Source of the DNA: Halapricum desulfuricans
GTDB lineage: Archaea > Halobacteriota > Halobacteria > Halobacteriales > Haloarculaceae
Length of the DNA stretch: 64,000 bases
Assembly (NCBI RefSeq): GCF_017094465.1
Contig: NZ_CP064791.1
Location: 1,736,001-1,800,000 of the forward strand
Reading direction: 5' to 3'
Shown here: positions 5,394 to 10,717 of the stretch, piece by piece
Position numbering within the stretch: position 1 is the stretch's first letter
Layout: the number at the start of each line of letters is the position of its first letter
Notes under the pieces: model-generated
The model's database searches: none
Seen by the model: the letters and a program-made list of their open reading frames with translations, nothing else
Told to the model about the DNA's origin: nothing
Program-made: the position numbers and the translations under genes

Positions 5394-6362
5394 CTACGTC
5401 GAGTCGACGGTTGCACCGCTCGTCGCGGCCTCGACGACGCGCACCCGTCCATCGAGTCCGAGGTCGTCGAGCGCGTCGCGAGCCGTCCGTTCGGCCGCCC
5501 CGGCCGTCTCGGCGTGTGTGATTCCATAGACAGTGGGCCCCCAGGAAGACTGTCCGGCCCCGGAGACGCCGGGAATCGAGTCGAGCGCGTCGACGAGTCG
5601 ACCCGCCGGCGGACGGTAGACTCCGCCCTGTTCGTCGGCGTACCAGGCACCGTTCAGCCGACTCAGTCGTGCGACAGCGCTGCCGAAGGTCTCGTGGTCA
5701 CCCGTCGCGATCGCCGGCAGCAACTGCCGCGTCACCACGAGCGCGATGTCGTCGGCGATCCCCGGATCGGCCCGCTCGACGACCGATCGAATACCCGCGT
5801 CCTCCGGTTCGCCGCTGAGCCCGCGTTCGGTCTCAGGGGTCACCAGCAGGAATCGCCACGCATCGGGCACGTCGTGGCGTGCGATTACCGGTGGGACTGT
5901 CCATTCGCCCTCTGCTGGCGGCTCGCTCGTGAACAGCTCCGTCGGATGACCGGCGTCGGCGACGAACCCGCCGGCCTCGAAGGTCGCGACGCCGACGCCG
6001 CTTCGACCACCGCGACCGATATCGGGCGCGATGGACCTGGCAGCGACGTCCTCGTCGTATGCCCGGGCGATCGCGACCACGCTCGCGAGGGCGAGTCGCG
6101 TTCCACTCCCGAGACCGACGTGTCGCGGGAGGCGCTGCTCGACTGTCACGTCCGCCCCCGGCACGTCGAGTATCTCGACCGCTCGTTCGACGTACGGCGT
6201 CCCACCGGACCAATCACAGCGCACGTCCGACGCGCGCTCGGCGCTGAGAACGAGGCGCGGCTCCGAGAGGCCGACGCCGACGCCACCGTAGAGACGGTCG
6301 TGTGCCAGCGAGAGGTTCTGGAAGCCGAAATGGATCCGACCACCGACCGTAACGCGTGCCAT
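5394..6362 (-). CDS. GHMP-kinase-fold protein, beta-RFAP synthase family
   Basis: A 322-residue GHMP-fold protein resembling beta-ribofuranosylaminobenzene 5'-phosphate synthase. In methanogens that enzyme joins p-aminobenzoate and phosphoribosyl pyrophosphate on the way to methanopterin. The GHMP glycine-rich loop is GLGSGT at residues 83-88. The N-terminus TVGGRIHFGFQNLS and the SSWGPTVYGI segment near the C-terminus fit the family. The frame is open upstream; the ATG at 6360-6362 is chosen because MARVTVGGR is the usual start. Haloarchaea are generally held to use folate, so the true role here is uncertain. A GHMP small-molecule kinase is the alternative. Confidence 0.78.
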   Translation of the reverse strand: MARVTVGGRIHFGFQNLSLAHDRLYGGVGVGLSEPRLVLSAERASDVRCDWSGGTPYVERAVEILDVPGADVTVEQRLPRHVGLGSGTRLALASVVAIARAYDEDVAARSIAPDIGRGGRSGVGVATFEAGGFVADAGHPTELFTSEPPAEGEWTVPPVIARHDVPDAWRFLLVTPETERGLSGEPEDAGIRSVVERADPGIADDIALVVTRQLLPAIATGDHETFGSAVARLSRLNGAWYADEQGGVYRPPAGRLVDALDSIPGVSGAGQSSWGPTVYGITHAETAGAAERTARDALDDLGLDGRVRVVEAATSGATVDST

Positions 6363-6417: not shown

Positions 6418-7323
6418 TCACTCCGCTCGGTAGTCGGCGATTCGGTTCCGGATTCGTCCGGCGACCTCGAGCGTCCGGTCCCGAGAGCGCTCCATGAGAT
6501 CCACGTATTGATCGTAATAGCGTTCCGCGAACCAGACGGACAGGAACGCCAGCGCGATCCCGGCGACGACATCAGTCGCCCAGTGAATTGCGAGATACAT
6601 CGTCGAGAGACAGACCAACGCGGCGAGCACGACCGCGATCGGCGTCCACAGCGGATAGCGATCGCGAGTTTTGACCGCCATGATGGCGATGGTCGTCGAG
6701 ACGGAGGAGTGCAGCGACGGGAAGACGTTGGTGTTGGTGTTCACCATCGAAGTCAGCAGCTGTGATTCCGGCCACACGTTGTACAGCACTTCGACAGCTC
6801 CGAGATTGTAGTAGTTGCGCGGCCCGTACGCGATAAAGGCGATATACAGGATCACACCGACGACATAGTTGAACGCATAGGCCAGTGACAACGTCCGAAA
6901 CGGTCGAAGGTCGGTCGAAAGGAGGTACGCGAGAAACGGGAACGACAGCAGATACACGTAGCCGAAGACATACACGACCGGGAACAAGAGCCCCGCTCTC
7001 GGTATCGGGAGCGATTGAACCGCAAGTACCACGGTGCCGCCCTCAATCTCGTAGATGAGCGAACTCAACTCGTATCCGACCCGCCAGGAGAGTTCAGAGC
7101 CGACGCTCCGAAGCGTGGCCATCGATCCGAGCACGATCCCGAGAAATACGAAATACGGGAGCGCTCGTCGAATTTGTCTGCCGATGCCTCGACGAGCTAC
7201 TGCACGGAGTTGTGCGACACCGACGATAGCGACGAGAGAAATGCCGAGGAGGACTGCAGTAACCGCTATAATCCGCACCACAATCGCTATCAGGATCGCT
7301 GTCGAGGGATCGTCCAGAACCAT
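6418..7323 (-). CDS. PAP2-superfamily membrane phosphatase
   Basis: A 301-residue integral membrane protein with about six hydrophobic helices and a PAP2 (type 2 phosphatidic acid phosphatase, inositolphosphotransferase-like) active site. Motif 2 is PSLHS at 202-206 (His205), and motif 3 has His247 and Asp251 in YLAIHWATDVVAG. The Arg of the first motif is probably in GPRNYY (167-172). It would remove or transfer a phosphate group on a lipid substrate at the membrane. The ATG at 7321-7323 shares one base with the stop of the binding-protein gene upstream, so the two are translationally coupled. Further in-frame codons upstream fall inside that gene and are rejected. Confidence 0.86.
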   Translation of the reverse strand: MVLDDPSTAILIAIVVRIIAVTAVLLGISLVAIVGVAQLRAVARRGIGRQIRRALPYFVFLGIVLGSMATLRSVGSELSWRVGYELSSLIYEIEGGTVVLAVQSLPIPRAGLLFPVVYVFGYVYLLSFPFLAYLLSTDLRPFRTLSLAYAFNYVVGVILYIAFIAYGPRNYYNLGAVEVLYNVWPESQLLTSMVNTNTNVFPSLHSSVSTTIAIMAVKTRDRYPLWTPIAVVLAALVCLSTMYLAIHWATDVVAGIALAFLSVWFAERYYDQYVDLMERSRDRTLEVAGRIRNRIADYRAE

Positions 7324-9101
7324 TAGTACACGAGGATGTCGTCGTCGGTATAGTGATACCCGGCGTTGCTGAAATGCTTGCGGGCGTTCTCGGTGAACAG
7401 TTCGTCTTCGACTCCTGCGAACGGAACTTCGGGATCGCCGTTGTTCCACCTGAGATCCTCGGGGATCCACGAGTCCTCTAGGACTGGTGTCGTCCGTGGT
7501 TCGGCGTATCCGTCGAAGATCGATTCGACAATCGCACCTTTGTTGATGAGGTGGGCGACGGCTCGCCGAAAGGACGGGTTTCGGAGCGGCCGACGACGCG
7601 TGTTGAACCCGACGTGATACAACGTCCGGGACTCGCTGGTCGCGAGAGAGAGACCGTCCCGACTGACGACCCCTGAAACGATTTTGTTATCGAGTGACGG
7701 GGCGGTAACGTCGGCCGCGTTTTCCCGGAGATAGGCAACCATCGTCAGATCCGAGGGGGTCAGGCTGACGACCAGCTCCGAAAACGCTAGCTGTCCGAAC
7801 CGGTCGGCGAGCGGAGATCCGTCGTCCCGGTTGAGCGGATGCTCCTCGAAGCGACTGAAACGAACCGATTCCCCCTCCGTCCGGTTGGCCAGGGTCATCG
7901 GACCGGACCCGACAGCACCAGTGTTGTCGTGACCAATCGCTCGGGTGATGCCGCGGCGCGCGTTCGAGACGCGAGTCCGGGATCGCCAGACGTGTTTCGG
8001 CAATAGCGGAACCGTGAGCAGAGCGGGGGCGGTCGCGGCGGACGAGTCGACCCGGAACCGGACCGTTCGATCGGTTTCGACTGTCACGGTGTCGACGGCC
8101 TGTGCCTGGCCCTGGAATCGAGGCGCCGGGTACTCAGCGTCTGCATTGCCGAGCGCCGTGTCCTCGAGGAAGTCGTACGTGAACTCGACGTCCTCGGCAG
8201 TGATCGGCTCACCGTCGTGCCAGTAGAGGTCCGACCGGAGGGTGACTGTGAGCTCGTCGTCGTCCGTGACGAGTTCCCAATCTTCGGCGAGCCACGGTCG
8301 AACGGCATCGTCGTAATACCGGGCAAGAGGATCGTACAGCAGCGATGTGACGAGATCGAACTCGTTGATCCAGGGGACGAGTGGATTCAACTGCTGGGTG
8401 ATCGATCCGTCTTTGGTGGTGATCCGAAGGGTCTCGTCGGTCGCCGAGTCCGAGGCGGGTTCGAGTTCGAGCAGCCAGGTCGGATCGCGAAGCGGCGCAC
8501 GCTCCCAGCCCTCGAAGGCGTCGGTGCTGATCGCGGCAATGGCCTGGTCCGTGGCGATCGGAACGAACGGTTGCTCGCCGGCAACCGTATCGAGGACGCG
8601 CCTGATCGTGTCCGTCCGCTCCTCTCCGGTCTGGCGGTGCTGTTGGGCGAGGGACTCGTCCAGCGAGATATCGGCGAAGCCGAAGGGGTTCTGCCATCCG
8701 AGCGCATCCGTATACGTCGACGTCAGTAACGGCCGGAGGTAGTCGGGATCGCGTCCGATCGGCATCGTCCCGACGTACAGATCGAAGTCCCGATCGTACA
8801 GGACCTGTCTGCGGAACTGCCTGGGCGGGACCAGCGGGAACCGTGTGTCGATGCCGACTTTCTTGAGTCGTTCGACGAGCTGGCCAGCGATTTCGTTCGC
8901 CCGTCGATCCCAGTCGGCCGGGGGAGCCATCACACGCAGCGAGATCTGGTCGAGCGACGAGAAACCCAGAAACTGTCGCATCGATCCGAGGCAACCGCCC
9001 AACAGTCCGCTCGCAGCGACAGCCCCACCCGCAGCTACCTGGCGTCGTGTTAACCGTGCTCGGTTATCTTCGTCCATCTGTTTCCACCACAGCGTTGTCA
9101 T
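7323..9101 (-). CDS. Family 5 solute-binding lipoprotein, apparently circularly permuted
   Basis: A 592-residue exported binding protein of the SBP_bac_5 (oligopeptide/dipeptide) class. A twin-arginine signal (RR at 19-20) with lipobox LLGGC (Cys37) marks a Tat lipoprotein. The order of conserved blocks is unusual. Residues 50-212 match what is normally the C-terminal part (ANEIAGQLVERLKKVGI, DFDLYVGTMPIGRDPDY, and the PFVPIATD block). Residues 222-592 match the normal N-terminal and middle parts (LNPLVPWIN, WHDGEPITAEDV, then GFNTRRRPLRNPSFRRAVAH at 498-517), and the chain ends at the helix before the normal hinge. No permease or ATPase genes are adjacent; the coupled neighbour is the PAP2 gene. 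ATG at 9101 is preferred over Met9 because a TATA-like box lies at 9133-9140. Confidence 0.86.
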   Translation of the reverse strand: MTTLWWKQMDEDNRARLTRRQVAAGGAVAASGLLGGCLGSMRQFLGFSSLDQISLRVMAPPADWDRRANEIAGQLVERLKKVGIDTRFPLVPPRQFRRQVLYDRDFDLYVGTMPIGRDPDYLRPLLTSTYTDALGWQNPFGFADISLDESLAQQHRQTGEERTDTIRRVLDTVAGEQPFVPIATDQAIAAISTDAFEGWERAPLRDPTWLLELEPASDSATDETLRITTKDGSITQQLNPLVPWINEFDLVTSLLYDPLARYYDDAVRPWLAEDWELVTDDDELTVTLRSDLYWHDGEPITAEDVEFTYDFLEDTALGNADAEYPAPRFQGQAQAVDTVTVETDRTVRFRVDSSAATAPALLTVPLLPKHVWRSRTRVSNARRGITRAIGHDNTGAVGSGPMTLANRTEGESVRFSRFEEHPLNRDDGSPLADRFGQLAFSELVVSLTPSDLTMVAYLRENAADVTAPSLDNKIVSGVVSRDGLSLATSESRTLYHVGFNTRRRPLRNPSFRRAVAHLINKGAIVESIFDGYAEPRTTPVLEDSWIPEDLRWNNGDPEVPFAGVEDELFTENARKHFSNAGYHYTDDDILVY

Positions 9102-9268: not shown

Positions 9269-10717
9269 ATGCCAGTGGAGCTATCGGGCACACACGCGAC
9301 CGCAACGGTGATGATCGACGACGAGTCGCTTCTGGAGCAGTCGGCCCGCGAGCAGATCCAGACCCTCATCGACCACGAAGCGTTCACCGAACCGGTGGTC
9401 GTCATGCCGGACACACACTGGGGTGCCGGGGCACCGGTCGGATTTACGATGTCACTGCCCGACCGGATCGTCCCGAACGTCGTCGGCGTCGATGTCGGCT
9501 GTGGGATGGCCGCGACGAACCTCGGGGAGACGCTGCCACTGGACGACAGCGAGCGCGAACGCCGCGTCCGCGAGGCCGTCCCAATGGGGCGAGACGTGCA
9601 CGACTACGCGGACGCGCCACACCTGGTCGATCAGTTCCCCTTCGAGCGGGCGAACCAGGTCTTCAAACGGTTCGAGGAGGCCTATCGCGAGCGGTTCGGC
9701 CGGTCGATCGAGCCGATCACCTTCGAGTTCTCGGGCTACGACGAGCAGTACTTCAAGGACCTCTGTGATCGCGTTCTCTCCCGGAAGCGCCAGGGGATCG
9801 GCCACATCATCAAAAGCGCTGGCACGCTCGGTGGTGGCAACCACTTCGTCGAGTTCGCCCGCGCACGCGACTCCGGTGACTACTGGCTGATCATCCACAG
9901 CGGGTCGCGCTATCTGGGGCTGGCCGTGGCCGAATACTGGCAGCAGCGGGCGACCGAACTGCGGAACGCCGACGCGATTCGGGCAGCGATACCCGAGGAC
10001 GACTACCGGTATCTCGAATTCGACCCCGAGTCAGTCAGCGACGCCGAGTTGCACGCCTGGGTCACCGGCGGGATGGGGCAATCCCACATCGACCGTGAGG
10101 CAGTGCTCGAGGATCTCGAGGGGGAAGCGATCGAGCGAACATTCGATCGGCTGAACGGTATCGAACCGGACCCACAGGCGCGCAATACGGATCTGGACTA
10201 CCTCGACGGTCGGGAAGCCCACGGCTACTACGTCGATATGCTGTTCGCCCAGCAGTACGCCCGCTGGAACCGAGAGTTGATGAGCGACGCCATCTGTGCG
10301 GCGCTTTCCGTCGAGTCAGTCGATCGCTTCCAGTCGATCCACAACTACATCGACTTCCACGATCTGACGGTCCGGAAAGGTGCGACGCCGGCCAGGGACG
10401 GACAGCGACTCGTGATCCCGTTCAACATGGCGGACGGCTCGATACTGGCCCGCGGAACGGGCAACGACGACTGGAACGAGACGGCACCCCACGGTGCGGG
10501 CCGGACGATGAGTCGCCGAGAAGCCAGCGAACGCGCGTCAGTCGAGCAACTCCGCGACCGTATGGACGGCGTCTACTCCGAGTCACTGGTCGAGTCAGTG
10601 CTGGACGAAGCGCCGATCGCGTACAAGGACGCCGATCGGATCGCCGCAGCGATCGAACCGACCGCAGAAATACTCGATTGGCTAGAGCCGGTGCACAACC
10701 TCAAGGCGCTGGAGTGA
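9269..10717 (+). CDS. RtcB-family RNA ligase (divergent paralogue)
   Basis: A 482-residue RtcB-fold protein. RtcB joins RNA 2',3'-cyclic phosphate or 3'-phosphate ends to 5'-hydroxyl ends using GTP and manganese, as in tRNA splicing. Candidate metal and nucleotide ligands are all present: Asp75 and Cys78 (GVDVGCG), His192 (GGGNHFVE), His210 (IHSGSR), His358 (SIHNYIDFHD) and the guanylylated His408 (PHGAGR). The MPDTHWGAGAPVGFT block differs from the canonical archaeal form, so this may be a second, specialised copy. The start gives MPVELSGTHA, with an A/T-rich CTATTAC about 30 bases upstream. It converges on glutamate dehydrogenase with a 5-base gap. Repair rather than splicing is possible. 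Confidence 0.88.
   Translation: MPVELSGTHATATVMIDDESLLEQSAREQIQTLIDHEAFTEPVVVMPDTHWGAGAPVGFTMSLPDRIVPNVVGVDVGCGMAATNLGETLPLDDSERERRVREAVPMGRDVHDYADAPHLVDQFPFERANQVFKRFEEAYRERFGRSIEPITFEFSGYDEQYFKDLCDRVLSRKRQGIGHIIKSAGTLGGGNHFVEFARARDSGDYWLIIHSGSRYLGLAVAEYWQQRATELRNADAIRAAIPEDDYRYLEFDPESVSDAELHAWVTGGMGQSHIDREAVLEDLEGEAIERTFDRLNGIEPDPQARNTDLDYLDGREAHGYYVDMLFAQQYARWNRELMSDAICAALSVESVDRFQSIHNYIDFHDLTVRKGATPARDGQRLVIPFNMADGSILARGTGNDDWNETAPHGAGRTMSRREASERASVEQLRDRMDGVYSESLVESVLDEAPIAYKDADRIAAAIEPTAEILDWLEPVHNLKALE

Follow-up and report, generated by a model that had tools for sequence, protein, structure and literature searches.

The window (the whole 64,000-nucleotide stretch of Halapricum desulfuricans DNA that we analysed) carries a gene for a family 5 solute-binding protein (SBP), here called P0001, and directly downstream of it, on the same strand, a gene for a PAP2-family membrane phosphatase; the SBP stop codon and the PAP2 start codon overlap by one base (TGATG). 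The features of this pair are collected in Table 1. A Pfam search with P0001 that admitted E-values up to 1 returned SBP_bac_5 (PF00496; 158.8 bits against a cut-off of 32.4) and no other match, and the best stretch, residues 267–588, corresponded to positions 2–284 of the 368 in that profile, the end of the profile being missing on the C-terminal side. The start codon of P0001 is likely Met9 (position 9077), as the twin-arginine segment and the lipobox come right after it; that the protein is exported is inferred only from this signature, which is visible in the sequence. In permuted relatives, the N-terminus was matched by the signal portion of the canonical profile (described below).

Table 1. 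Positions in the window of the SBP gene, its parts and the adjoining PAP2 gene.
Feature	Position	Strand	Basis
Gene of permuted family 5 solute-binding lipoprotein P0001 (592 aa)	7323..9101	-	ORF, Pfam, profile and AlphaFold
Tat-type signal LTRRQVAAGG and lipobox LGGC, ending at Cys37	8991..9077	-	Sequence itself
C-terminal lobe of the family 5 fold, now N-terminal (residues 45–212)	8466..8969	-	Profile, profile-profile, structure
Linker across the old C- and N-termini (residues 213–221)	8439..8465	-	Gap between the two profile matches; variable in the family alignment
N-terminal two thirds of the fold and first C-lobe helix (residues 222–592)	7326..8438	-	Pfam, profile, structure
Helix at the new termini (residues 570–579)	7365..7394	-	AlphaFold model, rotated alignment rows
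PAP2-family membrane phosphatase gene	6418..7323	-	PAP2_3 50.3 bits, PAP2 44.3 bits (cut-offs about 27)

Swapped order of the two parts of P0001

The initial annotation had proposed, from sequence alone, that the halves of an oligopeptide-type binding protein are swapped here by circular permutation, with the old termini joined and new ones cut at the hinge, and had named a single collinear match over residues 60–592 as the outcome that would refute this. Our canonical profile, built on 29 haloarchaeal family 5 SBPs of canonical order, was compared with P0001 and 29 relatives from other genomes. In P0001, residues 217–544 matched profile positions 34–339 (122 bits, 3e-38), and residues 55–208 matched positions 373–539 (15 bits, 1e-5). 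All 30 family members showed this reversed two-block order, with profile positions ~35–340 found at residues ~220–545 and positions ~370–526 at residues ~50–190; E-values for the N-terminal block reached 1e-12 at best, that of P0001 being the one given above. A profile-profile comparison of P0001 with a template of 561 columns gave the same arrangement, residues 219–586 matching columns 49–383 (E = 3e-48) and residues 46–206 matching columns 378–551 (E = 6e-13). When sequences were rotated, most permuted relatives gave a single collinear match with a raised score, and canonical SBPs gained nothing.

The full AlphaFold model of P0001 (67 sequences; mean pLDDT 89.7, pTM 0.87) agrees with these alignments. 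Residues 218–592 superposed on Bacillus subtilis AppA 17–355 (Z 22.8, 2.9 Å over 330 positions) and residues 223–592 on Escherichia coli DppA 1–345 (Z 20.7). As Foldseek is a sequential method that covered one part of the protein only (TM about 0.4–0.45 when used alone), we modelled residues 45–217 separately; this model was of moderate confidence (74.6), and it matched DppA 335–504 (Z 9.1) and AppA 342–516 (Z 9.8), nearly all chains listed as its structural matches being family 5 SBPs. The two pieces thus tile DppA 1–504 in swapped order with all elements of the bilobed cluster C fold present, and by sequence and model P0001 is a circularly permuted family 5 'Venus flytrap' protein. The proposed swap of the halves held by profile, profile-profile and AlphaFold evidence, as did the joining of the old termini; both parts matched family 5 profiles as separate blocks in reversed order, and the refuting collinear match was not obtained. 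The proposed cut at the hinge held only in part, the new termini lying inside the C-terminal lobe just past its first helix (residues 570–579), the canonical counterparts of which run straight on into the part now found at residue ~54.

Misassembly or a frameshift as the source of the swapped order is ruled out, since the identical order occurs in some 70 of the 145 related genomes searched, as full-length collinear relatives of P0001. Family members occur at 79 named loci in about 35 genera of haloarchaea, and a search of 393 sampled genomes of the phylum, at a strict cut-off of 1e-60, found them only within the same taxonomic order.

Further cut positions among family 5 SBPs

For the topology sorting, all rotations of the proteins were scanned against the canonical profile and against separate C-lobe and tail profiles; the labels are our own. 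T0 is the canonical order, and the permuted family 5 SBPs have four cut positions: T1 near profile position 380–392 (the P0001 type), T2 near 354, T3 near 469, which brings the last ~60 residues to the start of the chain, and T4 near 155. The type protein of T2, P0002, is a second permuted family 5 lipoprotein of the same genome, encoded 10 kb outside the window (G000:C1:1724565-1726448, minus strand, or L064:8565-10448, minus strand) at the head of a complete dppBCDF-like operon. It is cut about 30 residues earlier than P0001, so the terminal helix of P0001 is the starting helix of P0002. Its unpermuted sisters L202 and L203 are 44–46% identical to it, and when its two blocks are compared separately with L202 they are 44% and 42% identical. 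T4 is represented by L167/L246 (G047:C1:627694-629403, minus strand), which in two parts is 71% and 62% identical to P0002. L167 belongs to a dpp operon in which the four partner genes are all present, and its old ends are rejoined via a Gly/Asp-rich linker resembling that behind the lipobox; we conclude that it is an already permuted gene that was cut a second time.

These younger cases bear on a different explanation of P0001, namely that it is a new fusion in which the C-lobe of a different SBP was placed in front, i.e., domain shuffling as considered for the permuted Treponema pallidum protein. In favour of this, the N-terminal block of P0001 scores far below the rest (15 against 122 bits), and because of this weakness a single donor cannot be proved for the old P0001 event. 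Against it, in the P0002–L202 and L167–P0002 comparisons the two blocks are at similar distances from one and the same protein, and no remnant C-lobe is left at the C-terminus of P0001. We consider such a fusion very unlikely and retain circular permutation of a single gene.

T3 is represented by seven proteins (L170, L171, L173, L214, L215, L217 and L241); L219 and L223 are T3-like on weak evidence and were left out of the tree described below. T1 extends well beyond the P0001 family: the permuted T1 SBPs L178–L187, L251, L253 and L254 are only about 22–28% identical to P0001 and lie in transporter operons where the context is visible, and L177 and L192 were assigned to T1 by the two-block match only, with no score gain on rotation. 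Alphaproteobacterial plasmids (Nitratireductor, Roseomonas, Microvirga and Neorhizobium) encode T1-type proteins 33–39% identical to a haloarchaeal T1 protein over about 90% of its length; three of these checked by profile (L251, L253 and L254, from Nitratireductor, Roseomonas and Microvirga plasmids, respectively) are permuted, so T1 is not specific to haloarchaea. In the annotated Nitratireductor and Roseomonas records the T1 gene heads an ABC transporter operon. M28 peptidase genes adjoin the alphaproteobacterial T1 genes in some annotated cases.

A tree was computed for 78 proteins, using the core common to all topologies; the groups had been named after the profile matches were seen. One permuted ancestor for all permuted SBPs was ruled out by the AU test, which rejected a single clade of all permuted proteins (p = 2e-7). 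A single T3 clade was also rejected (p = 5e-46, and p = 5e-4 without L241), and so was T2 without T4 (p = 1e-9), for which reason T4 is placed inside T2; P0002 has a separate origin on the tree. A single T1 clade was not rejected (p = 0.15) and T1 is therefore counted once. We arrive at at least six topology changes (T1, T2, T4 and three for T3), some of which are possibly reversals.

The duplication-fusion-trimming model of permutation predicts fused tandem copies (PMC3320104), and one is present in the genome we label G010, where a single frame of 1582 codons (L206:6114-10859, minus strand) holds two SBP copies 70% identical to each other, the second without a signal. We infer that this fused tandem fits an origin by duplication, fusion and trimming; as it lies in a different part of the family, it shows that intermediates exist and not the route taken by P0001 itself. 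For P0001 the most likely route, by inference, is that an SBP gene was duplicated in tandem and the copies were fused in frame, after which the first copy lost its front portion downstream of the signal and the second copy its back portion; the N-terminal signal kept by the permuted proteins is what such a loss would leave. Most known cases of natural circular permutation are single events of old date. In contrast, this family has unpermuted, permuted and re-permuted members ~40–70% identical to one another in the same kind of transporter operon, together with a fused tandem duplicate, and this makes the model testable in close relatives.

The PAP2 gene and the ligand site

In 77 of the 79 P0001-family loci, and for 89 of 101 SBP copies, the next gene on the same strand is a PAP2 gene, with a median overlap of 1 bp. 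Of the 12 copies without a detectable PAP2 gene directly behind them, most are second copies from Natrinema. Natrialbaceae-type genomes often carry the pair in tandem, SBP-PAP2-SBP-PAP2 (L068, L070, L079, L094, L110 and similar loci). In the Natrinema tandem loci the second PAP2 is either absent or too diverged for detection. Residues H206, H248 and D252 of the PAP2 partner are invariant in 90 sequences, from which we infer that it is likely an active enzyme; in the window partner Thr242 stands where the classical PAP2 'SR' motif has its arginine. As for ABC transporter genes, the 79 loci gave only stray, distant matches to permeases or ATPases, and in the window neither adjoins P0001 directly. 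A contrast set of 20 loci with distant SBPs of the same cut (L174–L193) had a PAP2 neighbour only at L188, which clusters with the PAP2-linked family on the tree; nearly all of the others have dppB/dppC-type neighbours.

E. coli DppA holds the dipeptide through R383 and D436, which bind its carboxyl and amino group and also touch the scoop loop of DppB (PMC12136057). When we aligned rotated sequences with DppA from E. coli K-12, each of these anchors was present in 26 out of 30 canonical haloarchaeal SBPs, compared with 1 of 40 (R383) and 0 of 40 (D436) in the P0001 family, and P0001 itself has neither. Given this loss a dipeptide ligand is unlikely, and the family is likely not a peptide importer.

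P0001 could nonetheless serve an ABC importer in the ordinary way, docking to a DppBCDF-type permease whose genes lie elsewhere in the genome, with the linkage to PAP2 being incidental. A complete dpp-like operon is present in the same genome (L064), one permease is common to five SBPs, DppA1–A5, in Pseudomonas aeruginosa (PMC4206461), and the closest permuted relatives of P0001 outside its family are transporter-linked. Against this reading, permease and ATPase matches are stray and distant in loci of which nearly all have PAP2, the lost dipeptide-binding residues are also the DppB scoop-loop contacts, and the dpp operon of the genome already has its own, differently permuted SBP (P0002). The importer reading is weakened to the point of being unlikely, though it is not excluded. 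The lost anchors would also suit a degenerate or purely structural envelope protein that binds no ligand, yet the family is widely conserved in Halobacteria and both lobes contain many invariant residues (e.g., GWQNPF and HDGxxxTAxDV), and we regard this possibility as very unlikely.

We favour, with moderate confidence, the explanation that the permuted flytrap is a ligand-binding, membrane-anchored partner of the PAP2 phosphatase. In this proposal the P0001 lineage would have left a dpp/opp operon, its dipeptide-clamping residues being gone, and come to lie directly upstream of a PAP2 gene; that gene order is shown, and co-translation, inferred from the overlap, is probable. The lipoprotein would bind a ligand outside the cell, possibly a head group that is phosphorylated or lipid-linked, and may present it to the phosphatase at the outer face of the membrane or regulate the enzyme there. 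This function is inferred, with no experiment linking the SBP and the phosphatase, and gene order alone cannot separate a functional SBP-PAP2 pair from an old operon. A large haloarchaeal family that resembles transporter SBPs probably has another role, linked to a membrane phosphatase. A bolder reading, to which we give rather less than even credence, is that family 5 is a permutation hot spot (the at least six changes, four cut sites and one re-cut) and that SBP and PAP2 form a new two-gene receptor-phosphatase unit conserved across Halobacteria, in which one lineage of the permuted flytrap has become the half that binds the ligand outside the cell.

Known systems and the wider neighbourhood

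P0001 shares the fold, sequence family and lipoprotein export of the cluster C, family 5 proteins DppA, OppA and AppA, but differs from them in the rotated order of its pieces, the absence of adjoining transporter genes, the loss of R383 and D436, and the PAP2 partner; against the NCBIfam equivalog model for DppA it scored 30.7 bits, the cut-off of 1005 not being reached. The initial annotation as an oligopeptide-type binding protein accordingly held for the fold family, whereas the context, in the form of the PAP2 partner and the lost anchors, argues against a component of an oligopeptide transporter. That annotation had missed that the permutation of P0001 is one of several within family 5, while its claim that the permutation had not been described held for family 5, of which we found no circular permutation described in the literature searched (most subscription journals were not covered). 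Among 60 of the 103 PDB chains that match the permuted profile there was no solved permuted family 5 SBP, which does not exclude that one exists.

Permutation of an SBP is in itself already known. TpMglB-2 (Tp0684) of T. pallidum is a permuted glucose-binding lipoprotein of type I, termed 'Type Ic / Cluster Bc' (PMC4990184), and shares with P0001 that it is an ABC-type binding lipoprotein whose circular permutation is natural and conserved; it differs from P0001 in having the type I glucose-binding fold and another cut, and was described as a single lineage. What is new here is the permutation of family 5 SBPs, its repeated and serial occurrence being the more surprising part. P0002 is a permuted family 5 lipoprotein as is P0001, and differs in its T2 cut and its operon. 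The permuted T1 SBPs from haloarchaeal and alphaproteobacterial dpp-like operons share the cut and rotated order of P0001 and are annotated, if at all, as ABC transporter substrate-binding proteins; annotation that depends on the order of the parts overlooks part of the permuted SBPs.

Clustering of the further neighbours in the P0001-family loci gave no other clearly conserved real gene besides those for the SBP and PAP2, several clusters being antisense frames. In the window a GHMP-family kinase gene lies behind the PAP2 gene (5394-6362, minus strand) and an RtcB gene is divergent from the pair (9269-10717, plus strand); this order of GHMP kinase and RtcB genes, not kept in the remaining loci, is kept in Halapricum hydrolyticum (L065).
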